Source: a virus. From it: DNA of 39,205 nt. The notes beneath the pieces were generated by a model. That model made no database searches. It was given only the letters and a program-made list of their open reading frames with translations, and had not been told where the DNA came from. Positions 4,412 through 15,242 of this stretch are shown here, piece by piece (positions within the stretch are counted from its first letter, which is position 1; every line of letters starts with the position of its first letter). The stretch is taken from positions 1-39,205 of IMG/VR virus record IMGVR_UViG_3300017917_003960; one strand, written 5' to 3'. Made by a program: the position numbers and the translations under genes.

Positions 4412-4420
4412 CAATCGGTC

Positions 4421-4582
4421 TTACTTCTTAGAGAAGATAGACCAAAGGGTTCCTGCTAATGCGACTGCACCACCAATGAGTTCGTTTAGAAGGGATTCCT
4501 CAACAACACCTTGGATCACCAAGATACCACCTACGAAAGTAAGAACGTGTCTTACAATTCCTTGAATTTGTTCTTTTGTCAT
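4421..4582 (-). CDS. Putative small holin (Pam3-gp28-like)
   Basis: A 53-residue protein with a short charged N-terminus (MTKEQIQGIVRH), a first hydrophobic segment at about residues 13-27 (VLTFVGGILVIQGVV), a loop with acidic residues, a second hydrophobic segment at about 35-50 (ELIGGAVALAGTLWSIF) and a basic SKK tail. This is the pattern of small two-segment phage holins of the Pam3-gp28 type, which permeabilise the inner membrane at lysis. An oriented TATTTATA lies 28 nt upstream on the minus strand, fitting late expression. The M23 peptidase at 16.4 kb could be its partner enzyme. Assignment is by pattern only. Confidence 0.65.
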   Translation of the reverse strand: MTKEQIQGIVRHVLTFVGGILVIQGVVEESLLNELIGGAVALAGTLWSIFSKK

Positions 4583-4610
4583 AACATAAATTTTTATTAG
4601 GTTTATTCAC

Positions 4611-4618
4611 TATAAATA
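4611..4618 (-). promoter_or_regulatory. Putative late promoter (minus strand)
   Basis: TATAAATA on the plus strand reads TATTTATA on the minus strand, 28 nt before the start of the minus-strand holin candidate. This is the same orientation rule as the plus-strand copies. Confidence 0.6.
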
Positions 4619-4640
4619 TCTAACTTTGTCGTCACAAAAC

Positions 4641-4714
4641 AGGCATTTAGCTCAGTTGGTTAGAGCGCCTCTCTGATACGGAGGAAGTCGTAGGTTCGAG
4701 TCCTACATTGCCTA
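4641..4714 (+). tRNA. tRNA-Ile(GAU)
   Basis: Acceptor AGGCATT/ATTGCCT with one T-T mismatch, D-stem GCTC/GAGC, anticodon loop CTGATAC (GAU), T-stem GTAGG/CCTAC, discriminator A. Confidence 0.93.
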
Positions 4715-4718
4715 CAAT

Positions 4719-4791
4719 GATCTCTTAGCTCAGCTGGTAGAGCAATACACTTTTAATGTATGGGTCCCGAGTTCGAATCTCGGAGGGATCA
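4719..4791 (+). tRNA. tRNA-Lys(UUU)
   Basis: Acceptor GATCTCT/AGGGATC, anticodon stem ATACA/TGTAT with loop CTTTTAA (UUU), canonical D and T arms, discriminator A. It starts 5 nt after tRNA-Ile. Confidence 0.95.
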
Positions 4792-4826
4792 CATCCGATG
4801 TGTTTACCGAGCTAGGTCGGTTATTT

Positions 4827-4901
4827 GCACCCTTAGCTCAGTTGGTTCAGAGCATCTCGTTTACACCGAGAGGGTCGGAGGTTCGAATCCTTCAGGGTGT
4901 A
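4827..4901 (+). tRNA. tRNA-Val(UAC)
   Basis: Acceptor GCACCCT/AGGGTGT, anticodon stem TCTCG/CGAGA with loop TTTACAC (UAC), T-arm GGAGG-TTCGAAT-CCTTC. The 35-nt spacer before it can form a small ACCGA/TCGGT hairpin. Confidence 0.94.
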
Positions 4902-4906
4902 CAAAT

Positions 4907-4981
4907 GGTGGATATAGTTCAGTTGGTTAGAACGTCTGATTGTGGTTCAGAAGGTCGTGGGTTCGAACCCCATTATTCACC
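4907..4981 (+). tRNA. tRNA-His(GUG)
   Basis: Anticodon loop TTGTGGT (GUG). The extra 5' G (G-1) facing a C discriminator, the His identity feature, is present before acceptor GTGGATA/TATTCAC. Confidence 0.94.
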
Positions 4982-4987
4982 CAAAAA

Positions 4988-5061
4988 GGTCCTGTACCCA
5001 AGTGGTTTAAGGGGGTGCTCTGCAAAAGCATTATTCATCAGTTCGAATCTGATCGGGACCT
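4988..5061 (+). tRNA. tRNA-Cys(GCA)
   Basis: Acceptor GGTCCTG/CGGGACC, anticodon stem GTGCT/AGCAT with loop CTGCAAA (GCA), T-stem ATCAG/CTGAT and the U discriminator characteristic of tRNA-Cys. Confidence 0.94.
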
Positions 5062-5067
5062 CAACAT

Positions 5068-5138
5068 TACCCCATCGTCTAACGGCAGGACAAGTGGTTT
5101 TGGTCCACTTAATGGTAGTTCGAATCTATCTGGGGTAA
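5068..5138 (+). tRNA. tRNA-Gln(UUG)
   Basis: Acceptor TACCCCA/TGGGGTA, anticodon stem AGTGG/CCACT with loop TTTTGGT (UUG), short D-loop, discriminator A. Confidence 0.93.
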
Positions 5139-5143
5139 CAAAT

Positions 5144-5214
5144 GCGTCCATAGTGTAATGGTAACATCACGGTCTCCAAAACCGTTGTTCTAGGTTCGAG
5201 TCCTAGTGGGCGTG
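5144..5214 (+). tRNA. tRNA-Trp(CCA)
   Basis: Acceptor GCGTCCA/TGGGCGT, anticodon stem ACGGT/ACCGT with loop CTCCAAA (CCA), discriminator G. The anticodon reads UGG only, so it gives no support for UGA being read as Trp. Confidence 0.94.
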
Positions 5215-5221
5215 CTAAGAA

Positions 5222-6379
5222 TTAAAAATTCAGAGCTTGCTTGATTCTGATGACAAAGTTATTAACCACGGTCTGACATTCAGATGAAGTTACTAACTGT
5301 CCACTGTTTTTGGATAATAATGTTTTGATTGCTAAAATGTTTTTGGTTCCAGCACCTGTTGTGTATAAATAACCACCACAACCACCTACGTTAGTGGGTT
5401 GTGCATATGAGTTAATTGTACCGAATGTTGAATCCCAATTACTATGTCCCAACAAAATGTATAAATCACAGTGAGATGGATCACTTGCGTTATATGTCTC
5501 TCGGTAAAATGCGTAAGTTGTGAATCCACTTAAATCAGTTCCGTTGTAAATCGTACCACTTGCTAATGTACCACCACCATCAGCACCTGAATTACCTGCG
5601 GTTTGGAATCCGATTGGGAATCCATCACCATAAATTAGATTATCACGAGCACCTAAAACTGTGAGTGGTAGATAAGTTGGACTTTGAACACCACTTGTAA
5701 ATTGTTGGTATCCCAAACTAATATAACCAAAACTTGTGTCCAAATTCACACTTGTCGCCGAGTTTGTGTAATCCACCGCAAATGGATATGTACCTGGGCT
5801 GTATCCATCTGTTGAACTATAATAATCGGTGTTGGCGATAACCCATGGTGAACTTATGTTTCCATTATCATACATGTCTCCACCACCATCACTAATTTCA
5901 TACCCATTACCATCTAACTGATAGTTATAGAAATTAGGATTTCTGAAATCTGGCATGTAGTTTCTAAGGTATTCAGCAATTAATTGAAGATCATTGTAAG
6001 GATTACTTGGAACAAAGGAAGTCCAAAAACCATTGTTATTCAACCAAGTTTTGGCATCAGTTCCACCTGTAAATGTTTGTGGGTCCCCTTCTTGTTGTGA
6101 AATATAATCGGATAATTCTAAAAAAGATTCTTCAGTTTTGAATTCTGATCTCCAAAAAGTTACGGTACCTATATTTCCTACAGGGGTTGGTTGGTCGCCA
6201 GCCGGCACTGATGTACCAATACAATAACCTAATTCTTCATCTGGGCCCTGCCACCATTGTAATCCTCCATAGTTGTTATCATAAGGATTATCCCCTGTTC
6301 CGACAGCTATAGTACCGTATTGTTGGGTACCTGAAAGAACTGAACCGGGATTGTATGCAAAAGGTCGTGCAGTCGCCAT
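5222..6379 (-). CDS. Putative virion surface/tail protein
   Basis: A 385-residue protein, rich in Gly, Asn, Tyr, Ser and Thr, with little charge, predicted to be all-beta. It begins MATARPFAYNPGSVLSGTQQYG, a kind of N-terminus I associate with structural proteins of Bacteroidota phages. It contains repeated aromatic-Gly turns (GGLQWWQG, SFGYISLGYQQF) and a C-terminal helix-like tail. No signal peptide is present. A minus-strand TATTTATA lies 13 nt upstream, so it is probably late. It may be a tail-fibre or receptor-binding protein, but the evidence is compositional only. It sits inside the tRNA cluster, facing against it. Confidence 0.55.
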   Translation of the reverse strand: MATARPFAYNPGSVLSGTQQYGTIAVGTGDNPYDNNYGGLQWWQGPDEELGYCIGTSVPAGDQPTPVGNIGTVTFWRSEFKTEESFLELSDYISQQEGDPQTFTGGTDAKTWLNNNGFWTSFVPSNPYNDLQLIAEYLRNYMPDFRNPNFYNYQLDGNGYEISDGGGDMYDNGNISSPWVIANTDYYSSTDGYSPGTYPFAVDYTNSATSVNLDTSFGYISLGYQQFTSGVQSPTYLPLTVLGARDNLIYGDGFPIGFQTAGNSGADGGGTLASGTIYNGTDLSGFTTYAFYRETYNASDPSHCDLYILLGHSNWDSTFGTINSYAQPTNVGGCGGYLYTTGAGTKNILAIKTLLSKNSGQLVTSSECQTVVNNFVIRIKQALNF

Positions 6380-6392
6380 AGTTTTTTTTTTC

Positions 6393-6400
6393 TATAAATA
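6393..6400 (-). promoter_or_regulatory. Putative late promoter (minus strand)
   Basis: Minus-strand TATTTATA, 13 nt upstream of the ATG of the 385-residue virion-type protein. Confidence 0.6.
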
Positions 6401-6423
6401 GTTGGAAATATTTATTAGTCCCA

Positions 6424-6455
6424 TTTGGATTGATGATAAAGTCATTGTATCTTTG
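6424..6455 (+). promoter_or_regulatory. Host-like promoter for second tRNA group
   Basis: TTTGG at 6424-6428 and TATCTTTG at 6448-6455, spaced by 19 nt. It fires toward tRNA-Leu(UAG) and the RNAs that follow. Confidence 0.75.
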
Positions 6456-6501
6456 TGGTGTTGAAAGACAAATGATCTTTGAAATGTTGGTGAAAATAGT
6501 T

Positions 6502-6581
6502 GCCGAGGTGGTGGAATGGTAGACACGCTGGTCTTAGGAACCAGTGCCTTGTGTGTGTGGGTTCGAGTCCCACCCTCGGTA
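6502..6581 (+). tRNA. tRNA-Leu(UAG)
   Basis: Class II tRNA: acceptor GCCGAGG/CCTCGGT, anticodon stem CTGGT/ACCAG with loop CTTAGGA (UAG), a variable arm and T-arm GTGGG/CCCAC, discriminator A. Confidence 0.94.
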
Positions 6582-6587
6582 CAATTT

Positions 6588-6685
6588 GATGTAGTAGCTC
6601 AGGAGGAATGCCCATATGACATTCCCATGGTAGAGCAGAGTCCTGAAAAAACTTGTGCCACGTGGTTCGAACCCCGTCTACATCA
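6588..6685 (+). tRNA. Aberrant tRNA-like gene with D-loop hairpin insert
   Basis: Acceptor GATGTAG/CTACATC is perfect and the D-stem GCTC/GAGC is present, but the D-loop holds an extra hairpin (GGAATG/CATTCC around CCCATATGA). The anticodon stem pairs only four of five positions around CTGAAAA (would read GAA, Phe), and the T-stem needs a bulged T (ACG-T-GG with CCCGT). At 98 nt it is about 22 nt too long. It may be a decayed tRNA, an intron-like insertion or a non-decoding tRNA-like RNA. A normal tRNA-Phe exists at 4.3 kb. Confidence 0.55.
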
Positions 6686-6691
6686 CAACCT

Positions 6692-6774
6692 TGGAAGGTG
6701 GGTGAGTGGTTAAAACCGGCAGACTGTAAATCTGCTCCCTTACGGGTACGGCGGTTCGAATCCGTCCCTTCCAA
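6692..6774 (+). tRNA. tRNA-Tyr(GUA)
   Basis: Class II tRNA: acceptor TGGAAGG/CCTTCCA, anticodon stem GCAGA/TCTGC with loop CTGTAAA (GUA), variable arm and T-stem GGCGG/CCGTC. Confidence 0.94.
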
Positions 6775-6777
6775 CAA

Positions 6778-6977
6778 AATGGAAAACTCCTTACAGAAGA
6801 CAGATTAGCACTGTTGAAAGGAACCTTGGCTTATGGGAGTAATTACCTAATAAGTGTAAAATGACCCAAGGTACTCTGTGATGGACCCTGCTCTATGGTG
6901 CACTCATAACAGGTGGACAGTAAATTATGTCCTGTCAAATCTACAACTACGGTGATCGTAGAAGGAGGGTTTCCATT
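6778..6977 (+). ncRNA. Unassigned structured RNA A (about 200 nt)
   Basis: No ORF fits. The ends are complementary: AATGGAAA pairs with TTTCCATT and, after a small internal loop, CTCCTT pairs with AAGGAG. Inside are a 7-bp stem ACCTTGG/CCAAGGT that encloses CTTAT/ATAAG, and the hairpins GGACA/TGTCC and CTACG/CGTAG. It lies between tRNA-Tyr and a tRNA-like gene, so RNase P and 3' processing of its neighbours could release it. I recognise no known RNA family. By position it recalls the stable RNAs C and D of T4, which also sit by the tRNAs. Confidence 0.6.
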
Positions 6978-6984
6978 TTATTAT

Positions 6985-7074
6985 AGTCAGGTGGCAATTG
7001 GTGTCACAGGTGCTTCGGGGCCTGTATCACGCTCCCTGTAGTGGGGGGTACAGGTTCGAATCCTGTCCTGACTT
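6985..7074 (+). tRNA. Aberrant class II tRNA-like gene, 8-nt anticodon loop
   Basis: Acceptor AGTCAGG/CCTGACT and a canonical T-arm (ACAGG-TTCGAAT-CCTGT) are clear. The D-arm could form up to six pairs (GTGGCA/TGTCAC) around ATTGG. The anticodon arm CAGGT/GCCTG leaves an 8-nt loop GCTTCGGG, and a long variable arm (CTCCC/GGGGG) follows. The nearest reading is UCG, which does not suit a class II tRNA (Leu, Ser, Tyr, Sec). Isotype is unassigned. Confidence 0.55.
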
Positions 7075-7079
7075 CAAAG

Positions 7080-7188
7080 AACAAATCAGTTAGGTGACGT
7101 ATACATCCTAACACTCAACACGAACTAAGGTGTACCTGCAGGGCATCAATAAAATCGTCTGATGCAGAGTCCGAGTTGAGGATTTGTT
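7080..7188 (+). ncRNA. Unassigned structured RNA B (about 109 nt)
   Basis: Closing stem AACAAATC/GATTTGTT, then a hairpin GTTAGG/CCTAAC, then a stem CTCAAC/GTTGAG enclosing a hairpin GCATCA/TGATGC. This multi-branched fold fills almost the whole gap between two tRNAs and is followed by a T-rich stretch. It does not show the marks of 5S rRNA or SRP RNA. No ORF is present. Confidence 0.55.
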
Positions 7189-7196
7189 TTATTATT

Positions 7197-7276
7197 GTCA
7201 GAGTGGCGGAATAGGTAGACGCGCACGACTCAAACTCGTGTACTCCGGTGTGTGGGTTCGATTCCCACCTCTGATA
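7197..7276 (+). tRNA. tRNA-Leu(CAA)
   Basis: Class II tRNA: acceptor GTCAGAG/CTCTGAT, anticodon stem CACGA/TCGTG with loop CTCAAAC (CAA), T-stem GTGGG/CCCAC, discriminator A. Confidence 0.94.
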
Positions 7277-7287
7277 CTTATATATAA

Positions 7288-7361
7288 GGGCTGTTAGCTC
7301 AGCTGGCTAGAGCACCTGCTTTGCACGCAGGGGGTCAACGGTTCGAATCCGTTACGGTCCA
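7288..7361 (+). tRNA. tRNA-Ala(UGC)
   Basis: Acceptor GGGCTGT/ACGGTCC, anticodon stem CCTGC/GCAGG with loop TTTGCAC (UGC), canonical D and T arms. Confidence 0.95.
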
Positions 7362-7386
7362 CAATAAAAACTTGCATGCCATGCAT

Positions 7387-7460
7387 TCTCCCTTAGCTCA
7401 GTCGGTTAGAGCATTTGACTGTTAATCAAAGGGTCCTTGGTTCGAGTCCAAGAGGGAGAG
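7387..7460 (+). tRNA. tRNA-Asn(GUU)
   Basis: Acceptor TCTCCCT/AGGGAGA, anticodon stem TTTGA/TCAAA with loop CTGTTAA (GUU), T-stem CTTGG/CCAAG, discriminator G. Confidence 0.95.
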
Positions 7461-7464
7461 CAGT

Positions 7465-7570
7465 ATAGTCGGGTGGCTGAATTGAAAAAGGCACATCCTT
7501 TTTGGGTGGAGAACGTGAAGACCTATTAGGGGTTGTTCTCAACTGTAGGTGGGATTCCTACCCCGACTAT
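7465..7570 (+). tRNA. Aberrant class II tRNA-like gene with T5 anticodon loop
   Basis: The ends pair over nine bases (ATAGTCGGG/CCCGACTAT), longer than a normal acceptor. The anticodon arm CATCC-TTTTT-GGGTG is 15 nt, two shorter than canonical. A variable arm GAGAAC/GTTCTC is long. The T-loop is TGGGATT rather than TTCGAAT, and the D-loop lacks the usual GG, so the D-loop/T-loop contacts would be lost. It may be non-decoding. The same T5 anticodon arm recurs at 11.8 kb. Confidence 0.55.
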
Positions 7571-7576
7571 CGTGTG

Positions 7577-7767
7577 GGTTGGTAGTAAGAAGCGTAGGTC
7601 AACGGTATGGGAGAGCATATCGCAAGGGTACACACTAAGGATAGGTCGTTTGTTTTGGAACTCACGTCTGATTTTATGATAAGACCCGTCTCTCTGAGGG
7701 TGTGTGAAGCCGAATTCGTGAGTGAGGTTAGATTCCTGATAAAGTTGATCACTACCAACCTTTTTTT
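7577..7767 (+). ncRNA. Unassigned structured RNA C with terminator-like tail
   Basis: A perfect 10-bp closing stem GGTTGGTAGT/ACTACCAACC (7577-7586 with 7751-7760) is followed by seven T, so the RNA could end by intrinsic termination. A second helix GGTCAAC/GTTGATC stacks directly on it. Inside, TACACAC/GTGTGTG and ACTCACG/CGTGAGT cross each other, suggesting a pseudoknot, and GTCT/AGAC forms a hairpin. It is about 184 nt, has no credible ORF and lies between the tRNAs and a convergent sulfotransferase gene. No known family is recognised. Confidence 0.6.
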
Positions 7768-8371
7768 ATTTCACCAATGTTTTCCAAGAATCTCGGTGAT
7801 AACCTCCAAGTTCAAACTCGGATTGTTTTTGATTGTACACAATATCTGCGAGTTCTTGATTGTAAAATTCATAATAAGGTTTTGTCAATTCCTTTGGACG
7901 ATCTTTCCTCCAAGGTAGGTTACCCAAACCAAAGATCGAAAGTTCGTCGTGTAACTCCAATTCGTTTTCCTTAATGTAAGAAATTTTGAGTAAATCTTCC
8001 AATAGAGATTCGTATTTTACAAGATTGTAATTCGTAATGTTTTGTGAATTCAACACCCCCGATGGATTTTTAAAGTCATTATCTCTGATGTCGGTCAAGT
8101 AATCGTGTGAGTGGTAGACACTGTTTGAAAATTCAATAAAGTTTTTTGTGTTGTAATTTTTTTCGTTATTGAGTAACCAATAGGATACTGCACGTGAATA
8201 TGGATTTCTGATTAAAATGTTCAAATCCCAATTTGGATCTTTGATTGTCAGTGTGTGATGTCCATCATGATCAATGAATTCCAAACGTTCAAGAATTTGT
8301 TTTACCATTCTGCTGGCGGTTCTTGGGGGTAACCACCATTGAGATTTATATTTTTCTGAATAATACATCAC
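7766..8371 (-). CDS. Sulfotransferase family protein
   Basis: A 201-residue protein. LPPRTASRMV (residues about 14-23) is the 5'-phosphosulfate-binding loop, corresponding to the PKTGSTS motif of PAPS-dependent sulfotransferases, and IRNPYSRAVSYWL (about 55-67) is the 3'-phosphate-binding motif. The end DIVYNQKQSEFELGGY fits the closing helix of the family. Such enzymes transfer sulfate from PAPS to carbohydrates or small molecules, and phages could use one to alter a surface glycan. It points against the tRNA cluster. The stop codon sits in the T-run after structured RNA C. No TATTTATA is seen upstream. Confidence 0.75.
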   Translation of the reverse strand: MMYYSEKYKSQWWLPPRTASRMVKQILERLEFIDHDGHHTLTIKDPNWDLNILIRNPYSRAVSYWLLNNEKNYNTKNFIEFSNSVYHSHDYLTDIRDNDFKNPSGVLNSQNITNYNLVKYESLLEDLLKISYIKENELELHDELSIFGLGNLPWRKDRPKELTKPYYEFYNQELADIVYNQKQSEFELGGYHRDSWKTLVK

Positions 8372-8387
8372 GATAATATAAGTTTTT

Positions 8388-8419
8388 TTTGGTTATTTGG
8401 AAAGATTGTTATATATTTG
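8388..8419 (+). promoter_or_regulatory. Host-like promoter TTTGG-19-TATATTTG
   Basis: TTTGG at 8388-8392 and TATATTTG at 8412-8419, spaced by 19 nt, with a 20-nt leader to the ATG at 8440. It supports that start over an upstream in-frame codon at 8389, which lies inside the promoter. Confidence 0.8.
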
Positions 8420-8439
8420 TAGTAAACAAATTAAAACTC

Positions 8440-9084
8440 ATGGCAAAATATAAACTACTTGTGAACGGTTTGGGACTTGATGGTTCCGCTCACGTTCTTA
8501 CTGACGCAGAAGTTCAAACGATTCTTTCTCACAAAGAAAAGGAAGGTCATAAAACTTTGGACGAAATGTACATGGATCTTCCCGAGATTTTGGAAGATTA
8601 TGATCATTACATGACAAACTATTGGGTTACCACAACTGCAATTGGTTCAGAAAGTCTTCATTTCGTTTTAGTGAATGAAAACGACGAAGTTGTTTGGGAT
8701 GCAAAATCTGAAGAGTTGGATCGTTTTATGGATAAGTTTGAATATCCTGACAATGAAGACCAACATGAAAAAGAGATTGATGCTTTTCCCCACGAAGGGA
8801 AGGAGAATATCCTACTTGTTTACGAAACCATCAAAGGTACTATGTTCGGGTTTGACATTGAGTCTGACGAGGAACCCAAACCCACGGATTTTGCGGTAAA
8901 TTTCCAGACTATGGAGACTCCTGACTACGAAGAGTCGTTGGTGTCAAAGATGTTCTTCAAAGGTCAAGAGTTGGAACGCAACTACGATGAGGAGACTTAC
9001 CGTGGTAAGAACCTTACTGTTGAATTGTTCACCATGGATGACATTGATTCCGATAATGATTGGGATGAGGACGAAGAAGAATAA
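8440..9084 (+). CDS. Acidic hypothetical protein (early-type)
   Basis: A 214-residue acidic protein beginning MAKYKLLVNGLGLDG and ending in a run of Asp and Glu (DSDNDWDEDEEE). No domain, signal peptide or membrane segment is recognised. The start at 8440 is chosen because the host-like promoter covers the longer frame. Strong acidity and expression from a host-type promoter are common in early phage proteins that bind host factors, but no partner can be named. Confidence 0.75.
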   Translation: MAKYKLLVNGLGLDGSAHVLTDAEVQTILSHKEKEGHKTLDEMYMDLPEILEDYDHYMTNYWVTTTAIGSESLHFVLVNENDEVVWDAKSEELDRFMDKFEYPDNEDQHEKEIDAFPHEGKENILLVYETIKGTMFGFDIESDEEPKPTDFAVNFQTMETPDYEESLVSKMFFKGQELERNYDEETYRGKNLTVELFTMDDIDSDNDWDEDEEE

Positions 9085-9105
9085 TTTATAAACAACATAA
9101 ACACC

Positions 9106-9597
9106 ATGGGAACTAACTACTACCGTGTACCGAAGAGTCACGAAATGATCAAGAGGGAGCAAAAACTCCGTATGAGAATTGACGCTATGGATACCATAAA
9201 TCCTGGTCAGATCGAACGTGGATTCCGTTCAATCTCGGTTGGTGAGTGGGATTCTATTTCTCCATGGGAGGAGTTCTTGGATGGAACCAAAGTTCATTTG
9301 GGTAAGCGAAGTTCTGGTTGGAAATTTCTTTGGAATTGGAATGATTCAAAATACTACAAGAACAAACAAGAACTTTTTGAGTTTATCCGAAGTGGTCGTG
9401 TGGTGAATGAGTATGGTGACCAGATGGATCAAGAGGAGTTTATCCAAATGGCTCTTCAGTGGGGTCAAGAGGATGGATGGGATATTGAAACATATTACAA
9501 GGAAAATCCTTCGCACCGTATTAGTTTTATTCACGAAAAAAAACACGAGGAGTATCTCGATGGACTACGTGTCTCAACCTCAACGGAGTTTTGTTAG
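9106..9597 (+). CDS. Conserved phage protein of the MGTNYY type
   Basis: A 163-residue protein starting MGTNYYRVP. It contains VHLGKRSSGWKFLW near residue 65 and a VVNEYGD segment near residue 100, a combination I associate with a widespread family of small phage proteins of unknown function. It lies 21 nt after the previous acidic gene, probably in the same transcript, and is followed by a strong terminator. Confidence 0.75.
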   Translation: MGTNYYRVPKSHEMIKREQKLRMRIDAMDTINPGQIERGFRSISVGEWDSISPWEEFLDGTKVHLGKRSSGWKFLWNWNDSKYYKNKQELFEFIRSGRVVNEYGDQMDQEEFIQMALQWGQEDGWDIETYYKENPSHRISFIHEKKHEEYLDGLRVSTSTEFC

Positions 9598-9612
9598 TTG
9601 TTATTTATCGTG

Positions 9613-9637
9613 ACGGGGATTTAGGTCCCCGTTTTTC
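9613..9637 (+). terminator. Intrinsic terminator
   Basis: Stem ACGGGG/CCCCGT (9613-9618 with 9627-9632) followed by TTTTC, 16 nt after the stop at 9597 and 3 nt before tRNA-Met. Confidence 0.85.
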
Positions 9638-9639
9638 AT

Positions 9640-9713
9640 GGCAAGGTAGTTCAGTCGGCTAGAACATCGGATTCATAACCCGAAGGTCGGGAGTTCGATT
9701 CTCCCCCTTGCTA
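9640..9713 (+). tRNA. tRNA-Met(CAU), elongator type
   Basis: Acceptor GGCAAGG/CCTTGCT fully paired, anticodon stem TCGGA/CCCGA (one A-C mismatch at the loop-closing pair) with loop TTCATAA (CAU), T-stem GGGAG/CTCCC. The paired acceptor end and the ATTCATAAC context favour elongator Met over initiator or Ile2. Confidence 0.88.
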
Positions 9714-9740
9714 CAATTCGGATCACAATAAATCAATAAT

Positions 9741-9768
9741 TGGCTCAGAAATTGATATCTTTGAGCCA
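9741..9768 (+). promoter_or_regulatory. Host-like promoter overlapped by an inverted repeat
   Basis: The -7 element TATCTTTG (9756-9763) overlaps the right arm of a perfect 7-bp inverted repeat TGGCTCA (9741-9747) / TGAGCCA (9762-9768). The left arm covers the TTGG that could serve as -33. The layout fits an operator for a dimeric repressor; a transcript hairpin is possible only if transcription starts upstream. Confidence 0.5.
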
Positions 9769-9792
9769 CAAATCAAATAAACTTGACCCATA

Positions 9793-10374
9793 ATGAAAAT
9801 CGATAGGAAAAAACTCGAATGGTTCATCAAAAACATCCGAACACACTTGGAAGGTAAGGAACTCACCGATGAACAATTGGTGGACGAACTTGCTACATAC
9901 ATGGAGAGAAATCCAAGGTGTATTGATATTCATGGAGTAAGTGATCCAGGTCGGTTCTATTACTCAACCGTTGGATATGGGGTATTTTCTCTGTTTGGAG
10001 AAAAATACCGAATGGGAAGAATTGAAATCTTTGATAGTCAAGATGAATCGGGGTATGCGGTTGATGAGGGTATTTACACAATGCCGTTCGTAGCTGCTAA
10101 TCAATTTGAAGACTTCATGGATTCACTTGAGACCGATTTACCGATTCATATCTCAATCGGATCTCATGAGTGGTGTGAAAAAGAGTGTGCCAAGTCTCTC
10201 GGATTTGAAAACTCCGATGAGATGAGGGATCCTGAAAAAATCAAAGAGTTCCAGAAAAAGAAAAACGATGAATACGCCGTGGAACGTGGATTCAAAGATT
10301 TTGATGACTTGTGGGCAAATAGTAAATTCGGTGGGAAATCACCAAAACATTTAGAAGAAAATGAAAACAGTTGA
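9793..10374 (+). CDS. Hypothetical phage protein
   Basis: A 193-residue protein with a Lys-rich helical N-terminus (about residues 1-35), a central aromatic beta-rich part (GRFYYSTVGYGVFSLFGEKY) and a charged helical C-terminus. No family is recognised. It lies 24 nt downstream of a host-like promoter and overlaps the following gene by 14 nt, so three genes and the RNase P RNA may share a transcript. Confidence 0.75.
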   Translation: MKIDRKKLEWFIKNIRTHLEGKELTDEQLVDELATYMERNPRCIDIHGVSDPGRFYYSTVGYGVFSLFGEKYRMGRIEIFDSQDESGYAVDEGIYTMPFVAANQFEDFMDSLETDLPIHISIGSHEWCEKECAKSLGFENSDEMRDPEKIKEFQKKKNDEYAVERGFKDFDDLWANSKFGGKSPKHLEENENS

Positions 10375-10645
10375 AGAAATTGAAAAAGAAGTTAGTGGAT
10401 TCTTGATGAAGAATCACAATGAACTTGGTTTAGGTGAATTTGATTTTATCTACAACGAAGAAGTTATGGAACACGTTCACAATATGTGTGTGAGTATTTT
10501 GTGTACCAAATATGGTGTTGGTTACCCTGGTGGAGGTTTTGTTCAGGCTGTTGTCAACAACGACTTGATGGGATCTTTTGGTCGGGCGGATCACATCAAT
10601 AAAAAGTACATTGGTCTATATGTAAAACTTTTATACAACTACTAA
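10361..10645 (+). CDS. Small conserved-type phage protein
   Basis: A 94-residue protein with a helical N-terminal half and a central GVGYPGGGFVQAVVNNDLMG segment that looks conserved-type. No enzyme motif is visible. Its start overlaps the preceding gene by 14 nt and its stop codon shares a base with the next ATG (TAATG), indicating translational coupling. Confidence 0.75.
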   Translation: MKTVEEIEKEVSGFLMKNHNELGLGEFDFIYNEEVMEHVHNMCVSILCTKYGVGYPGGGFVQAVVNNDLMGSFGRADHINKKYIGLYVKLLYNY

Positions 10646-10863
10646 TGAAAGTCTATAACGTAATTGCATACCTTCACGGTGATGTGAATCAACACTCCTA
10701 TCCTGTGGGTGTTTTTGGTACACAAATGATTGCTGAAATGGTTGCCCATGAAGAATCACTTGAACGTGGTGGTAAGTATAATATAAAAGTTTACGAAATG
10801 TCTTTTGATGAAACTTATTATTCATTTGATCCAATTGTAGTTTACGAAACCGAATCAAAATAA
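10645..10863 (+). CDS. Small hypothetical protein
   Basis: A 72-residue protein, MKVYNVIAYLHGDVNQHSY..., with alternating beta-like segments and no recognised domain. The start is coupled to the previous stop by TAATG. Its stop codon TAA overlaps the first bases of the RNase P RNA gene, so the two must be cut apart or made from different transcripts. Confidence 0.7.
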   Translation: MKVYNVIAYLHGDVNQHSYPVGVFGTQMIAEMVAHEESLERGGKYNIKVYEMSFDETYYSFDPIVVYETESK

Positions 10864-11126
10864 TCAACAAAATGGTGTCGCTCTAAGGAGAGGAAACTCA
10901 GGACATCTCAGCTTAAGGTGGTAGGTATAAGGCAACAAATTTATAATGATTAGTTATAAGTCCTGATCCTTATATCGGTTGAACCACCGAGGATGCAACC
11001 CAAAACAGTCCATGACGGTGAGCTGGTCGGACAAGGTGGGGGCCAATAGACTAATGACACTATCATCAAAACTTGCATTTTTTACAAGTTTGGATGTTAC
11101 AGAATCCTGGTTATACTTTGTTGATT
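10862..11126 (+). ncRNA. rnpB: RNase P RNA (phage-encoded, reduced)
   Basis: The catalytic RNA that removes 5' leaders from pre-tRNAs. Conserved blocks appear in the right order: GAGGAAACTC (10890-10899, CR I), ACAGTCC...ACGGTGA (from 11005), GGACAAGG (11029-11036), GCCAATAG (11042-11049), TAGACTAATGAC (11047-11058) and ACAGAA (11099-11104, CR V). Core helix P4 pairs CAGGA (10899-10903) with TCCTG (11105-11109). Terminal helix P1 is a 10-bp match, AATCAACAAA with TTTGTTGATT. At 265 nt it is well below the usual 350-400 nt, so peripheral helices are reduced; an extra hairpin ACTTG/CAAGT sits before CR V. It ends 4 nt before tRNA-Arg. I could not check secondary structure by covariance. Confidence 0.88.
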
Positions 11127-11130
11127 GAAC

Positions 11131-11202
11131 GCCCCCTTAGGCTAATGGATAAACCACTTCACTACGGATGAAGTTTTGGGAGTTCGAATCTCTCAGGGGG
11201 TA
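11131..11202 (+). tRNA. tRNA-Arg(ACG)
   Basis: Acceptor GCCCCCT/AGGGGGT, anticodon stem CTTCA/TGAAG with loop CTACGGA (ACG, needing A34 deamination to read CGN fully), T-stem GGGAG/CTCTC. It starts 4 nt after the RNase P RNA. Confidence 0.94.
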
Positions 11203-11212
11203 CAAAATAATA

Positions 11213-11244
11213 TTTGGTAGTTATAAATTTTTGTAGTATCTTTG
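11213..11244 (+). promoter_or_regulatory. Host-like promoter TTTGG-19-TATCTTTG
   Basis: TTTGG at 11213-11217 and TATCTTTG at 11237-11244 with 19-nt spacing. The leader to the ATG at 11265 is about 15 nt. Confidence 0.75.
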
Positions 11245-11264
11245 AAGTATCAAAACGAAAAAAC

Positions 11265-11507
11265 ATGTACACAGTAGATAAAGAAAAAGAACAAGGTGCT
11301 TTAGTTCATACCGTTGAGACTCGTGAGTACCACCTGAAAACTCAAGAAGGTCTTGAATTCACCGTACGAATTGAAGATTGTTGGGATTGGACAAATTACT
11401 TTACCGATCTGACTGAAGATGGTACCGCAGTTGACACAATGCGTCAAGTGTGGGACAACGAACCACTCTACGACTTCTTGATGGAAGTTGATTGGGATCA
11501 AGAATAG
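11265..11507 (+). CDS. Small acidic protein (early-type)
   Basis: An 80-residue acidic protein, MYTVDKEKEQGALVHTVET..., with an EFTVRIEDCWDW segment and an acidic C-terminus. No family is recognised. The start is set by the promoter directly upstream, which covers a longer in-frame extension to 11214. It stands alone between a tRNA and the promoter of the next tRNA. Confidence 0.7.
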   Translation: MYTVDKEKEQGALVHTVETREYHLKTQEGLEFTVRIEDCWDWTNYFTDLTEDGTAVDTMRQVWDNEPLYDFLMEVDWDQE

Positions 11508-11508
11508 A

Positions 11509-11539
11509 TTTGGAAATAAAATATATTTTCATATATTTG
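11509..11539 (+). promoter_or_regulatory. Host-like promoter abutting initiator tRNA
   Basis: TTTGG (11509-11513) and TATATTTG (11532-11539) lie just before tRNA-fMet at 11546. The predicted start would be within a few bases of the mature 5' end, so very little leader is left for RNase P to remove. Confidence 0.75.
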
Positions 11540-11545
11540 TAGTAT

Positions 11546-11618
11546 AGCGGGGTAGAGCAGAGGTTAGCTTACAAGGCTCATAACCTTGGGGTCGGGGGTT
11601 CGAATCCCTCCCCCGCAA
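11546..11618 (+). tRNA. Initiator tRNA-fMet(CAU)
   Basis: Anticodon loop CTCATAA (CAU). Initiator marks are the unpaired first position (A1 facing A72), the D-arm AGAGCAG...AGCT and the GGGGTCGGGGGTTCGAATCC body. Only two of the three classic anticodon-stem G-C pairs are present. The sequence after the discriminator A is CT, so CCA is not encoded. Confidence 0.88.
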
Positions 11619-11647
11619 CTAGTGGATCCTTCAGTTGAAGGAAACCA

Positions 11648-11686
11648 ATCCAAATACGTCCCACAAGATTGGAAACGTATTTGGAT
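11648..11686 (+). repeat. Perfect 12-bp hairpin between tRNAs
   Basis: ATCCAAATACGT (11648-11659) and ACGTATTTGGAT (11675-11686) are exact inverted repeats with a 15-nt loop. CCAATC/GATTGG could form an alternative pairing across one arm. A smaller hairpin CCTTCA/TGAAGG precedes it. It may guide processing between tRNA-fMet and tRNA-Gly. Confidence 0.6.
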
Positions 11687-11688
11687 TT

Positions 11689-11761
11689 GCGAAAGTAGCT
11701 CAGTTGGTAGAGCGTCTGCTTGCCAAGCAGAAGGCCGGGGGTTCGAATCCCCTCTTTCGCT
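11689..11761 (+). tRNA. tRNA-Gly(GCC)
   Basis: Acceptor GCGAAAG/CTTTCGC, anticodon stem TCTGC/GCAGA with loop TTGCCAA (GCC), discriminator T. Confidence 0.95.
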
Positions 11762-11766
11762 CAAAG

Positions 11767-11839
11767 AGTCGTGTAGCTCAGTGGTAGAGCAGTCCCTTTT
11801 TGGGATGTGACGCGATAGGTTCAATTCCTGCCACGACTC
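11767..11839 (+). tRNA. Aberrant tRNA-like gene with T5 anticodon loop
   Basis: Acceptor AGTCGTG/CACGACT and D-arm GCTC-AGTGGTA-GAGC are good. The anticodon arm GTCCC-TTTTT-GGGAT is 15 nt, two shorter than normal. If the closing C-G pair opened, the loop would be CTTTTTG and could offer UUU (Lys), but with an unusual U at position 37. The T-stem has an A-C mismatch at its base and the T-loop is TTCAATT. A normal tRNA-Lys exists at 4.7 kb, so this one is either a diverged duplicate or a non-standard RNA. Confidence 0.6.
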
Positions 11840-11848
11840 TTTATTTTT

Positions 11849-11925
11849 GGTGCGGTAGTTCAGTTGGTCAGAATACAGGCCTGTCACGCCTGGGGTCGCG
11901 GGTTCGAGCCCCGTCCGCACCGCCA
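11849..11925 (+). tRNA. tRNA-Asp(GUC)
   Basis: Acceptor GGTGCGG/CCGCACC, anticodon stem CAGGC/GCCTG with loop CTGTCAC (GUC), discriminator G. The 3' CCA is encoded, unlike most tRNAs in this window. Confidence 0.95.
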
Positions 11926-11946
11926 AAATAAATAAAATCAAAAGTC

Positions 11947-12171
11947 ATGAAAGCAGTTTTAGAGTTTAATTTACCCGAAGATGATCACGAGTTCGAAATG
12001 GCAACAAGTGGTTCTAAGTTCCACTCTGTATTGTGGGATATGGATCAGTATCTTCGTGCTAAGATCAAGTACGCACCTGATGATATGAGTGATGATACTT
12101 TACAAGCTTTTGAACAATGTCGTAGTCAACTACACGAATTCATGGGTAGTTATAACGTTTCATTTGACTAA
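11947..12171 (+). CDS. Small conserved-type phage protein (MKAxLEFxLPE type)
   Basis: A 74-residue protein, MKAVLEFNLPEDDHEFEMA..., followed by SKFHSVLWDMDQYLRAKIKY. I recognise this as a common type of small phage protein (ExxLxLPE start, acidic helix, WxxDxxLRxxxK) with unknown function. It sits between tRNA-Asp and tRNA-Pro and may be read from their transcript. Confidence 0.75.
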   Translation: MKAVLEFNLPEDDHEFEMATSGSKFHSVLWDMDQYLRAKIKYAPDDMSDDTLQAFEQCRSQLHEFMGSYNVSFD

Positions 12172-12201
12172 AGAGAAATCTATAGTATAATTTAAACTCA
12201 T

Positions 12202-12274
12202 AGGGATGTAGCGCAGATGGTAGCGCACCTGGTTTGGGACCAGGGGGTCGCAGGTTCGAGCCCTGTCATCCCTA
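12202..12274 (+). tRNA. tRNA-Pro(UGG)
   Basis: Acceptor AGGGATG/CATCCCT, anticodon stem CCTGG/CCAGG with loop TTTGGGA (UGG), T-stem GCAGG/CCTGT, discriminator A. Confidence 0.94.
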
Positions 12275-12293
12275 CAACTTTTCTAAGTTTGTA

Positions 12294-12896
12294 ATGTCTA
12301 ATCTGAAGTTTGTACACATTCCTAAAACAGGGGGAACCTCAATTGAAAATGCCGCCAAAGAACTCGGTATAAATTGGGGTAAGTACGAAAGACAAAACAA
12401 ATATCTAATCCACGGAATAAATAAATGGCACACACCCCAACGTATTGAGGGTATTGTTTTCTGTGTTGTTAGAAATCCATATGATAGAATCTTATCAAAT
12501 TTTCGTCACGTACATCCTGTCAACCAATATCACGTAGATAAACTCAACGAGTGGATCCCACAGATTTTATCACAGGCCAAAGACAATCCGTATCTAAGAG
12601 ACGCTCATTTCTTACCTCAATCTGAATTTGCCCAACATTGTGATATTCACCTTTTGTATAATGATTTACAAAGAGAGTTGGATTGGGTTTGTGAACTTCA
12701 TGGTGTACCAAACATGGTTTTGCCACATCATTACTGAGGACCTGAACAGGATGTCAAACGAGAAGGTAGAGAATACTATAAATTTGTGATTGAAGATATT
12801 ACTTCAGAAAACCAAAAACTTATCAAGGAATTCTATGAAAAGGATTTTGAATTATATGAAAAGGTTTTCCAAGAATGGTTGAAAAGACACGTTTGA
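12294..12896 (+). pseudogene. Sulfotransferase gene split by in-frame TGA
   Basis: The ATG at 12294 opens a sulfotransferase: KFVHIPKTGGTSIENA (residues about 4-19) is the phosphosulfate-binding loop, and FCVVRNPYDRILSNF (about 60-74) is the 3'-phosphate motif. A TGA at 12735-12737 stops it after residue 147. The same frame then continues with sense codons to TGA 12894-12896. That extension (REYYKFVIED..., then EFYEKDFELYEKVFQEW) is the expected closing region of the family. The simplest view is a nonsense mutation or sequencing error; readthrough is less likely because UGA is a normal stop elsewhere here. The truncated product lacks the last 53 codons. Confidence 0.7.
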
Positions 12897-12931
12897 CACC
12901 AATCAATAATCTATTATATTTTAAATAAAAA

Positions 12932-13114
12932 ATGCCGTACGTAGTATTCAAAGAAGGAAACCTGTTAGGTAAACAAATGACCATTTTGGTAAACGATAGT
13001 GAAGGAATTCCTATGGAGTTTGATACATTTGAGGGTGCACAGAAAATCGCCACACTCTTTGAAACCAACTCCACCCAAGGAAACAAATATTATGTAAGAG
13101 AGATCAAGTCATGA
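12932..13114 (+). CDS. Small hypothetical protein
   Basis: A 60-residue protein (MPYVVFKEGNLLGKQ...) with alternating beta strands and one helix (FEGAQKIATLFE). No family is recognised. It overlaps the next gene by 4 nt (ATGA), starting a run of four tightly packed small genes. Confidence 0.65.
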   Translation: MPYVVFKEGNLLGKQMTILVNDSEGIPMEFDTFEGAQKIATLFETNSTQGNKYYVREIKS

Positions 13115-13302
13115 ACATAGATTTGTCAAACCAAAAGTATAATAAATTCAAGGGTACATCTCCTGAGGGTTTTGTTTTGGTTCCATACGAGATGTTGGAG
13201 GAACTCAAAAATTTTGAAACTTGGGTTGAATTCAAGAACTCTGATCTTGGATGGATGGAGAGAAAATCTGCGGAAATTTATTCAACAAGAAATCAAGAAT
13301 GA
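13111..13302 (+). CDS. Small hypothetical protein
   Basis: A 63-residue protein with a central VPYEMLEELKNFETWVEF helix and a basic, polar tail. No function can be assigned. Both ends overlap neighbours by 4 nt, which supports it as a true gene in a coupled operon. Confidence 0.6.
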   Translation: MNIDLSNQKYNKFKGTSPEGFVLVPYEMLEELKNFETWVEFKNSDLGWMERKSAEIYSTRNQE

Positions 13303-13454
13303 ACTCAAAACCGACTTGTGTAATTTGTGGTAAGAAAGCCGTCCATAAAATAACGCCAGGTTATGAGGAAGGTTTTATGTACTCTTGTGATGATGAGTTT
13401 TGTAAACACTCAATCAAGATTCAGTTACAAGGGGCGATCAAAAATCAAAATTGA
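13299..13454 (+). CDS. Zinc-ribbon microprotein
   Basis: A 51-residue protein. TCVICGKKA provides a C-x-x-C pair near residue 7-10, and MYSCDDEFCKHS provides a second Cys pair (C-x4-C) near 30-35, so a four-Cys zinc site is likely. Such phage microproteins often bind nucleic acid or host proteins; the target is unknown. The start overlaps the previous stop by 4 nt (ATGA). Confidence 0.65.
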   Translation: MNSKPTCVICGKKAVHKITPGYEEGFMYSCDDEFCKHSIKIQLQGAIKNQN

Positions 13455-13455
13455 A

Positions 13456-13686
13456 ATGAAACGTAAGATCAAGGAACTTGATTTACATGGAGTTCCACAC
13501 TCGGAGGTTGAAATGTTTTTGGAGAACTTCTTTTTTGTAGGAAACATCGCTCAGGGTACCGTCATCACAGGAAATTCAAAAGAAATGAAGAATATTGTTT
13601 TGAGTTGGTTAGATCAAAATGATTTCTATTATTATGTTCCCACGGGTAATTTGGGACGTATTGAAGTTCAGGATAATCTTTTGTAA
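13456..13686 (+). CDS. Smr-domain protein
   Basis: A 76-residue protein that is essentially a single Smr (small MutS-related) domain: ELDLHGVPHSEVEMFLENFF at residues 7-26 gives the DLHG motif and first helix, and GTVITGNSKEMKNIV (about 35-50) is the strand and turn corresponding to the usual H-G-x-G region, here T-G-N-S. Smr domains are DNA- or RNA-nicking nucleases, some acting on stalled ribosomes. Loss of the His in the second motif could weaken activity. ATG 13456 follows the previous stop by 1 nt. Confidence 0.7.
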   Translation: MKRKIKELDLHGVPHSEVEMFLENFFFVGNIAQGTVITGNSKEMKNIVLSWLDQNDFYYYVPTGNLGRIEVQDNLL

Positions 13687-13693
13687 AAAAGTA

Positions 13694-13724
13694 TTTGACA
13701 GAATATATATTTTATGTATATTTG
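13694..13724 (+). promoter_or_regulatory. Host-like promoter TTTGACA-16-TATATTTG
   Basis: TTTGACA at 13694-13700 and TATATTTG at 13717-13724. The predicted start is about 6-12 nt before tRNA-Thr. Confidence 0.8.
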
Positions 13725-13735
13725 TATACTCAAAG

Positions 13736-13808
13736 GCTTGAGTAATTCAGTTGGTAGAATGGCTGATTTGTAATCAGCTCGTCGGGGGTTCGAGTCCCTC
13801 CTCAAGCT
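13736..13808 (+). tRNA. tRNA-Thr(UGU)
   Basis: Acceptor GCTTGAG/CTCAAGC, D-arm ATTC/GAAT, anticodon stem GCTGA/TCAGC with loop TTTGTAA (UGU), discriminator T. Confidence 0.94.
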
Positions 13809-13832
13809 CAAAATTTATAAACATCATTTTAA

Positions 13833-13961
13833 ATGAGTAAATTTGATTGGCGACACGCAGACCTTGAAGGTGATGAAAAACCTAAAGGTCGTAATGTCAA
13901 AAAAGAAATGAAACAACCTAAGTTGACAAATAAAAAAAATAAAGGGAAGAACAAAGAGTAA
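13833..13961 (+). CDS. Small basic protein
   Basis: A 42-codon ORF, MSKFDWRHADLEGDEKPKG..., with a very basic C-terminal half (Lys/Asn-rich). It may bind nucleic acid, but no family is known. The stop codon overlaps the next ATG (TAATG), so it is probably translated together with that gene. Confidence 0.6.
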   Translation: MSKFDWRHADLEGDEKPKGRNVKKEMKQPKLTNKKNKGKNKE

Positions 13962-14149
13962 TGGAAACTCACCCAACTGATAAGAATTTGGATAATCTGA
14001 AAGCTATGCTGATGATGACAGATGAGTTGGGTGCCCTGAAAGAAGAGTTGTCAACTGAAATCACACTTGATGAACGAATACCTGAGAACAATTCTGTGTT
14101 CAATTGTCCATGGGACAATCAACACGGAGATGTTACCTATTTCCGCTAA
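13961..14149 (+). CDS. Small acidic hypothetical protein
   Basis: A 62-residue acidic protein with an N-terminal helix (NLDNLKAMLMMTDELGALKEEL) and a polar C-terminus. No family is recognised. It is coupled to the preceding basic microprotein by TAATG; the opposite charges of the pair may be meaningful. Confidence 0.55.
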   Translation: METHPTDKNLDNLKAMLMMTDELGALKEELSTEITLDERIPENNSVFNCPWDNQHGDVTYFR

Positions 14150-14156
14150 GAAATTC

Positions 14157-14232
14157 AGACGGATAGCTCAGGGGTGAGAGCAGGATGCTTATACCATCAA
14201 GGTCGTGGGTTCGATTCCCATTCCGTCTACCA
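14157..14232 (+). tRNA. tRNA-Ile(UAU)
   Basis: Acceptor AGACGGA/TCCGTCT, anticodon loop CTTATAC (UAU) on a stem with one G-A mismatch at its base, T-stem GTGGG/CCCAT, discriminator A and encoded CCA. UAU reads AUA, a job usually done in bacteria by lysidine-modified tRNA-Ile2, which is also present here. Confidence 0.85.
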
Positions 14233-14240
14233 ATAAGTAA

Positions 14241-14272
14241 TTTTGATAATTAACAAATTTTTTGTATCTTTG
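14241..14272 (+). promoter_or_regulatory. Host-like promoter 4 nt from ATG
   Basis: TTTTG at 14241-14245 and TATCTTTG at 14265-14272. Only TCCC separates the -7 element from the ATG at 14277, so a leaderless mRNA is predicted. Confidence 0.75.
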
Positions 14273-14276
14273 TCCC

Positions 14277-14849
14277 ATGGAACACAAGAAACTTTCTTTT
14301 TGGGGAAAACTTAAACTTTTTTGGAAGCATGAATATCGTTATTACCCACGAAACTTCGTCCGTGGCGTTAGAAACCTAATCAAATGGGGTCCGGTAATTT
14401 GGAAGGACCGTGATTGGGATGACACTTTTTTGTTCGAGATTATCAAATTCAAAATCTCTAAGATGTCGGAATCTCACGGTAAAATATTTCCTCACATGGG
14501 GTCGGAGAGAAACGTCGAAATTATGAAGACGGTTGTTCGATTGATTGAGAAATTTCAATCAGAGGAGTATCTACATGAGTATTTTACCTATGTTGATGAT
14601 GAATATACATTCGTAAAAATCGAAGGGACGGACTATTTTGAGGTAAAAACGAAAAATCTTCGTGATGACTTGGATCTATATTTTGCAAAGTATCCCTCCC
14701 TAAAAAGACGGGCTATCAATCACAAAATCTACAAAGAAAATCCAAGTTCAGTAAGTTTGGCGATGGCTATGGGATTTGTGCAGCACGAACGAGCAAAACG
14801 ACTTATCTTTGACCTACTGAACCGTCATGTAGACAAGTGGTGGGAATGA
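14277..14849 (+). CDS. Conserved-type phage protein (HEYRYYPRNF..NLIKW type)
   Basis: A 190-residue protein. The N-terminal stretch FWKHEYRYYPRNFVRGVRNLIKWGPVIWKDRDWDD, quoted here only through its key residues HE..YPRNF, NLIKW and WKDRDWD, is a pattern I recall from many unrelated large phages, where its function is unknown. The C-terminal half is helical, ending in a conserved-looking RAKRLIFDLLNRHVDKWWE. No signal or membrane segment is seen. The start is set by the promoter 4 nt upstream. Confidence 0.75.
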   Translation: MEHKKLSFWGKLKLFWKHEYRYYPRNFVRGVRNLIKWGPVIWKDRDWDDTFLFEIIKFKISKMSESHGKIFPHMGSERNVEIMKTVVRLIEKFQSEEYLHEYFTYVDDEYTFVKIEGTDYFEVKTKNLRDDLDLYFAKYPSLKRRAINHKIYKENPSSVSLAMAMGFVQHERAKRLIFDLLNRHVDKWWE

Positions 14850-14858
14850 AATAAAAAA

Positions 14859-14931
14859 GGGCCCATAGCTCAGCGGTAAGAGCAGTTGACTCATAATCAA
14901 TTGGTCGGGGGTTCAAATCCCTCTGGGCCCA
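14859..14931 (+). tRNA. tRNA-Ile2(CAU), probably lysidine-modified
   Basis: Acceptor GGGCCCA/TGGGCCC, anticodon stem GTTGA/TCAAT with loop CTCATAA. The GACTCATAATC core and the GGTCG variable region resemble bacterial tRNA-Ile(CAU), whose C34 is changed to lysidine by TilS to read AUA. A second elongator Met is the alternative. Confidence 0.8.
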
Positions 14932-14945
14932 CAAAACATTTGGAA

Positions 14946-14953
14946 TATTTATA
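14946..14953 (+). promoter_or_regulatory. Putative late promoter TATTTATA
   Basis: Exact octamer, 4 nt (AATT) before the ATG of the PspC gene. Confidence 0.65.
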
Positions 14954-14957
14954 AATT

Positions 14958-15155
14958 ATGAAAGAAGAAACAAAAATGTACCGTCCCAAAGGTGATCGTG
15001 TGGTTGGTGGGGTGTGTAGTGGTATTGCGTATGACATGAATGTAGATCCACTTATTTTTCGTGTCATAGCTTTTTGCTTGATTTTTTCACCTGTACCTAT
15101 AATTTTGATTTATATTCTTCTTTGGCTTTTGATTCCAGGAGAAAAAGACGAATAA
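14958..15155 (+). CDS. PspC-domain membrane protein
   Basis: A 65-residue protein covering one PspC domain: MYRPKGDRVVGGVCSGIAYDMNVDP carries the R.....GGVC.GIA....+DP signature, followed by one long hydrophobic segment (about residues 35-58) and an acidic tail. PspC takes part in the phage-shock envelope-stress response by sensing inner-membrane damage with PspB in some bacteria. A phage copy made late could protect or manipulate the membrane before lysis. It has the TATTTATA motif 4 nt upstream. Confidence 0.85.
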   Translation: MKEETKMYRPKGDRVVGGVCSGIAYDMNVDPLIFRVIAFCLIFSPVPIILIYILLWLLIPGEKDE

Positions 15156-15163
15156 TCTACCAA

Positions 15164-15236
15164 GCGGAAGTAGCTCAGTTGGTAGAGCATCAGCCTTCCA
15201 AGCTGAGGGTCGCGAGTTCGAATCTCGTTTTCCGCT
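15164..15236 (+). tRNA. tRNA-Gly(UCC)
   Basis: Acceptor GCGGAAG/TTTCCGC, anticodon stem TCAGC/GCTGA with loop CTTCCAA (UCC), discriminator T. It is the last tRNA of the window. Confidence 0.94.
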
Positions 15237-15242
15237 CCAATT

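Follow-up and report, generated by a model that had tools for sequence, protein, structure and literature searches.

Can a phage carry, among its tRNA genes, the enzyme that matures them? Few ribozymes are as conserved as RNase P, the RNA enzyme that trims tRNAs in almost all cells, and it is cells that it is known from. An earlier note had proposed an RNase P RNA within a tRNA cluster in the stretch of viral DNA analysed here (the window: 39,205 nucleotides, IMG/VR record IMGVR_UViG_3300017917_003960). We found all the RNase P blocks that it had named, in the order and at the places it had given (Table 1). The two ends of the element pair perfectly over 10 bp as P1, as proposed. The proposed P4 pairing is also present, as an 8-bp long-range helix between CR-I (GAGGAA) and CR-V (ACAGAA) that leaves U10898 bulged; P4 and P1 form together, and both covary among relatives. 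P2, P5, P15 and CR-IV (GCAA and AGAnnAAU) complete the catalytic core. We take the P4 register to be exactly that of E. coli, with U10898 equivalent to U69, and the GCAA to hold the equivalents of A248/A249.

Table 1. Features of the phage RNase P RNA gene and its surroundings, in positions of the window.
Feature	Position	Strand	Evidence or remark
Phage RNase P RNA gene, catalytic domain only, 265 nt	10862..11126	+	R2 E 2.6e-27, RNaseP_arch E 4.1e-8
P1 5' strand AATCAACAAA	10862..10871	+	partner 11117-11126; relatives have P1 of other sequence
P1 3' strand TTTGTTGATT	11117..11126	+	complementary to 10862-10871
P2 5' strand	10872..10879	+	partner 11056-11063; permutation test, 45 sequences
Short P3-like hairpin	10881..10890	+	sequence; most relatives have a hairpin here
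CR-I and P4 5' strand	10890..10903	+	bulged U at 10898; P4 covariation
CR-I GAGGAAACTC	10890-10899	+	read from sequence
P5 5' strand	10904..10907	+	partner 10992-10995; covariation
P6 pseudoknot 5' strand CAGCT	10909..10913	+	partner 11021-11025; covariation and permutations
P7 5' strand	10917..10921	+	partner 10984-10988; covariation
Variable hairpin in place of S domain	10922..10983	+	10924-10932/10968-10976, inner 10939-10946/10954-10961
GCAA, P15, AGAnnAAU (J18/2-like)	10995..11055	+	invariant columns; P15 covariation
P15 pairs	10999-11001/11039-11041, 11008-11010/11030-11032, 11014-11016/11026-11028	+	all covary
GGU of P15 loop	11017..11019	+	expected pairing with tRNA 3' CCA
P19-like hairpin insertion	11064..11096	+	CATC/GATG, AAACTTG/CAAGTTT complementarity
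CR-V and P4 3' strand	11099..11112	+	invariant ACA..A; pairs with CR-I
CR-V ACAGAA	11099-11104	+	followed by P4 3' strand TCCTGGTT
tRNA-Arg(ACG)	11131..11203	+	ARAGORN and Rfam; likely substrate
tRNA array enclosing the RNase P RNA gene, 25 ARAGORN tRNAs	4339..15239	+	ARAGORN
Phage tmRNA, likely RNase P substrate	17453..17863	-	RF00023, 88.9 bits, E 2e-33

Is the element homologous to RNase P RNA? An Rfam scan of the window at gathering thresholds returned the tRNAs and the tmRNA and no RNase P match, and RF00010, the bacterial class A model, had no match in the window at E≤0.001. The search with the standard class A and B models that had been suggested as a check would thus fail at curated thresholds. 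In a permissive scan, RNaseP_arch aligned along the whole element (263 nt, 34.3 bits) and was the best model of the Rfam clan for the window, rather than the type T model. Across 28 phage records, RF00373 and RF00010 each matched 13 at E≤0.01, and the curated cut-off of either model was exceeded by none. Since the gathering-level scan and RF00010 both miss the element, standard annotation overlooks phage RNase P RNA; Rfam thresholds hide a whole class of these RNAs.

We built a covariance model, R2, from 25 phage relatives, leaving out the window and its four closest relatives. This held-out model picked up the window at 128 bits and the RNA of the cultured Stenotrophomonas phage DLP6 at E 3e-12. 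R2 also detected true class A rnpB genes (E 2e-11 to 9e-7): of nine bacterial rnpB matched, the eight checked with Rfam all exceeded the RNaseP_bact_a cut-off, and the ninth (L201) was judged on motifs alone. In these bacterial genes, about 100–173 nt fall between the two P5 strands, as an insert at P7 that corresponds to the S-domain stretch. Because a model made of phage sequences alone also detects true bacterial rnpB, the homology of the window RNA to RNase P RNA is secure.

Covariation supports the same fold. In 27 aligned sequences, a scheme of P4, P5, P6, P7 and P15 was paired in 97.8% of cells, and 27 of its 31 pairs showed two-sided change. Shuffling left 13.4 such pairs on average, and slid registers no more than 14, with only 24–44% of cells paired in those registers. 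Two-sided change was seen in 5/8 pairs of P4 (99.5% of cells paired), 4/4 of P5 (100% paired), 5/5 of P6 and 4/5 of P7. P6 lay outside the covariance model, so the 18 sequences unused for R1, a second model described below, provided an independent test of this pseudoknot: none of 2000 permutations was as good as the complementarity of each strand to its own partner (for example CTGCT/AGCAG, AAACC/GGTTT, CCACC/GGTGG, GAGAC/GTCTC and GGAGAG/CTCTCC). Likewise, P2 complementarity within a sequence was matched by none of 2000 sets of permuted partners in 45 sequences, and a P1 helix of differing sequence occurs in nearly all relatives. P1, P2, P4 with its bulged U, P5, the P6 pseudoknot, P7 and P15 are therefore supported by compensatory changes in the aligned sequences. 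Minimum free energy folding of the window RNA was only modestly better than that of shuffles (z −1.84), which is what long-range helices and a pseudoknot lead one to expect.

Which parts are missing? The specificity (S) domain, P8–P14 with CR-II and CR-III, is absent and replaced by a short variable hairpin after P7, which differs in most lineages and ranges from 16 nt (L004) through 62 nt in the window to more than 100 nt (L042 and L114); GAGA and UCGUU-like residues flank it in most copies. P18 is absent as well: the window and most relatives go from P15 straight into the AGAnnAAU segment, and a few relatives (L069, L400 and L411) have a different insertion there. The collapse of P16/P17 brings J5/7 into direct pairing with the P15 loop, beside GGU. 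The motif GGUGAGC is kept in most of the window's clade and not in all held-out relatives, and the P19-like hairpin insertion is particular to the window copy, being absent in most relatives. As had been noted, the RNA is smaller than cellular forms, because the S domain and P18 are missing.

By these sequence features, the phage RNAs are a distinct reduced type, homologous to bacterial class A RNA. They share P1, P2, P4 with its bulged U, P5, P6, P7, P15 and CR-I, CR-IV and CR-V with class A rnpB, yet measure about 180–310 nt, lack P8–P14 and P18, have a collapsed P16/P17 and score below the Rfam cut-offs. The archaeal type T RNA of Pyrobaculum (Lai et al. 2010), according to PMC5839562 and PMC4919922, likewise has a degenerate S domain, a modelled P6 and no P18. 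In contrast to type T, the phage RNAs are phage-borne and have bacterial-type surroundings (tmRNA, bacterial phages), whereas archaeal RNAs work with several proteins; the resemblance looks like independent reduction. The phage RNAs also recall engineered ribozymes in which the C domain alone is active (E. coli CP RPR, P. furiosus C domain), and the engineered E. coli form shares their combination of a missing S domain, a P6 and no P18. Whether or not C5 is present, this E. coli construct still cuts, about 100-fold slower than the full-length RNA, and a P6-mimic contributes to its efficient cleavage (PMC5839562). The phage RNAs differ from these laboratory constructs in being natural and in retaining a P7 stem, which ends in a hairpin cap.

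How widespread is this form? The earlier note had thought an RNase P RNA in a phage rare, which was not borne out: pattern scans in one virus collection plus a phage collection brought the total to about 57 phage records with 46 distinct sequences. A scan of IMG/VR with the CR-I pattern and a check for downstream blocks gave about 20 homologs; more relatives came from further pattern scans and from BLAST leads into huge phages. BLASTN of the 265 nt against phages returned only fragments, but the top one, in LR756501, pointed to the huge phages. The carriers are IMG/VR contigs, five huge phages of 462–735 kb, among them LR756501 (735 kb), and DLP6. The covariance model R1 found one copy in each of 29 phage records, one of them, LR756500, being outside its training set (E 5.9e-12). 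It also matched LR756508 (E 7e-18), LR756511 (E 1e-27) and DLP6 (E 4e-13), and of 40 loci collected with an independent pattern it matched 19 (E 1e-33 to 2e-6). The pattern GACGGTGAGCTGGTC returned many unrelated loci, 85 of which, with 85 non-homologous loci of earlier scans, formed a negative control of 170 phage loci (1.4 Mb) in which R1 had no match and no false hit. The proposal had been staked on a significant covariance-model match and on conservation in related phages; R2 and RNaseP_arch gave the former, and conservation extends beyond related phages to unrelated ones. These results confirm the proposal and go further than it did: RNase P RNAs with a catalytic domain only form a class that is widespread in phages, and catalysis by them is predicted.

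The LR756500.1 copy (L238:4854-5048) is very A+T-rich (GC 0.30) and highly diverged, with CR-I altered to GAGAAAATTGG, and could reveal how far the RNase P core can drift. In DLP6, the RNA lies at KU682439.2 105771-106025 (L411:2795-3049), in an unannotated gap directly before a tRNA-Arg. The Flavobacterium phage closest to the window by terminase is without RNase P RNA, as is Phage C48C1. Flavobacterium phages and huge phages have the terminases closest to that of the window (27% identity), a weak hint at a Bacteroidota host. The tmRNA and the relative cultured on a bacterium speak for bacteria as hosts.

The genomic setting links the RNA to tRNAs. ARAGORN found 26 tRNAs in the window, one with an unclear anticodon, and Rfam added the tmRNA, which ARAGORN did not report; the placement in a tRNA cluster thus stood, and the count of about 28 tRNA-type genes came down to about 27. 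The tRNA-Arg begins four bases past the end of P1. Nearly all copies lie among phage tRNAs, with a tRNA beginning within 17 bases downstream in about half of the relatives and ending within 10 bases upstream in several; LR756502, LR756511 and L397 have no tRNA nearby. No promoter stands out near the gene in the window. These close tRNA neighbours suggest that the RNase P RNA is co-transcribed with tRNAs and that its 3' end arises when RNase P cuts the tRNA that follows.

Which protein would the RNA work with? The earlier note had allowed that it may do without the host's protein subunit. In RNase P RNA, the surface that binds the protein subunit RnpA is located in the C domain. We searched for RnpA (PF00825) and found none in 28 of the 29 records of the first set, in 19 records of a second set or in DLP6, several of these records being fragments. 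The exception is the huge phage LR756502 (642 kb), in which a 101-residue RnpA at 525189-525473 of LR756502.1 (L239:1498-1803) scores above the TIGR00188 equivalog cut-off and matches solved RnpA structures (E 4e-6). This phage appears to encode both RNase P subunits and may thus have an RNase P entirely of its own. Close to its RnpA gene lies an ORF that weakly matches the head of CCA-adding/poly(A) polymerases. Since most of the phages are without RnpA, they presumably borrow that of the host.

What is the function of the phage RNA? We consider it highly probable that it is a C-domain-only RNase P that matures phage pre-tRNAs, the best explanation of these data. The RNA is probably transcribed within the phage tRNA operons. 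It folds into the standard core of P1, P2, P4, P5, P6 and P15, complete with the P4 metal site, CR-IV and CR-V, and most likely binds host RnpA. It is predicted to remove the 5' leaders from the many pre-tRNAs of the phage and from its tmRNA. Reading of the T-loop is the task of the S domain; in its absence, recognition would rely on the cleavage site and, in the window's clade, on contact between the tRNA 3' CCA and the GGU of the P15 loop. As the gene sits among tRNAs, the cut that frees the 5' end of the following tRNA would release the ribozyme's own 3' end as well. Given the 100-fold cost of removing the S domain from the E. coli RNA, the phage form must compensate or be weak.

Could the element be cellular DNA, or a remnant of it? 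Many of the records are metagenomic, as would be expected if the contig or the gene were bacterial, but the contig also carries T4-type genes for terminase, portal and protease, and the complete genome of the cultured phage DLP6 carries the RNA, so that we reject contamination as exceedingly improbable. Cellular genomes agree with this: R1 matched only 2 of 296 sampled Bacteroidota, weakly, both being ordinary class A rnpB, and the S-domain-less form was absent from every cellular genome examined. Among the matches listed in a pattern scan of genome contigs, a motif check recognised a single ordinary type A rnpB, and the phage form was absent from them. We also considered that CPR bacteria might carry the phage form, as R1 matched 26 of 287 CPR genomes; the idea was dropped when the best six of the 26 matches proved to be ordinary class A rnpB. 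Two CPR genomes (L415 and L420) have compact class A RNase P RNAs of about 270 nt, with the top cellular scores for the phage model. A decaying, functionless relic of a captured host rnpB would account for the lost S domain and the Rfam scores under the cut-off. Such decay is contradicted by the strong compensatory change across about 46 divergent sequences, by the single copy per phage and by the invariant catalytic residues; we regard it as very improbable and reject it.

Two further alternatives grant the RNA a function. As a decoy, it would bind host RnpA, or pre-tRNA, and divert RNase P from the host with no need to cut; the location of the protein-binding surface and the scarcity of RnpA genes would suit this role. 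A decoy, however, has no need to keep P4, and the strictest conservation is seen in the catalytic centre, with CR-I, the bulged U, GCAA, AGAnnAAU and ACAGAA retained as the rest drifts; moreover, the gene is placed with tRNAs, the substrates, and one phage brings its own RnpA. We therefore hold the decoy to be quite unlikely. Alternatively, the RNA could mainly process phage mRNAs or other phage transcripts, because RNase P has non-tRNA substrates, recognition without the S domain no longer requires a T-loop and the LR756502 copy has no tRNA within 5 kb. The tRNA-array setting in most relatives argues against such a preference, which seems to us quite improbable.

Maturation of phage pre-tRNAs by the phage RNA thus being our preferred reading, a bolder version is conceivable, and we advance it tentatively, as somewhat doubtful: phages of several lineages would run their own minimal RNase P, independently reduced from the bacterial form, placed in a tRNA operon, self-freeing and needing neither T-loop recognition nor host rnpB. 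If so, tRNA maturation would continue when the host RNase P RNA is lost or inhibited, and at least one huge phage would supply the protein subunit too. The phage form without a specificity domain is a natural analogue of the minimal ribozymes examined in vitro, and its many divergent sequences may tell which RNase P parts are truly needed. DLP6 makes a phage RNase P RNA testable in the laboratory now.

In several of the largest phage genomes, the RNA also accounts for a gap in the annotation, and tRNA 5' maturation would join the translation functions carried by phages. For the same genomes, Al-Shayeb et al. 2020 describe a translation kit of tRNA arrays, tmRNA, tRNA synthetases and CCA-adding enzyme; the main text of their paper, in which the 735-kb phage was reported, is silent on RNase P. 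The subject of a paper on GOLLD and RNase P in Mycobacterium (PMC6582537) is not phage RNase P. Our search of the open-access literature found no report of a phage RNase P RNA; an earlier description in subscription papers or preprints is possible.

Other genes of the window deserve mention. A tRNA-like gene at 6985-7075, for which two anticodon bases were reported, has an unclear anticodon and may be either a tRNA-like RNA or a tRNA that contains an insertion. At 2804-3397, ahead of the tRNA array, is a HAD domain (PF18143) of the RNA repair kind known as 'Swiss Army Knife', which may belong to tRNA repair. A ClpA/ClpC-like AAA+ ATPase at 22110-24104 (−) neighbours an ORF with UvrB/UvrC motifs at 24294-24764 (+), a McsA-like arrangement that is unusual in a phage.
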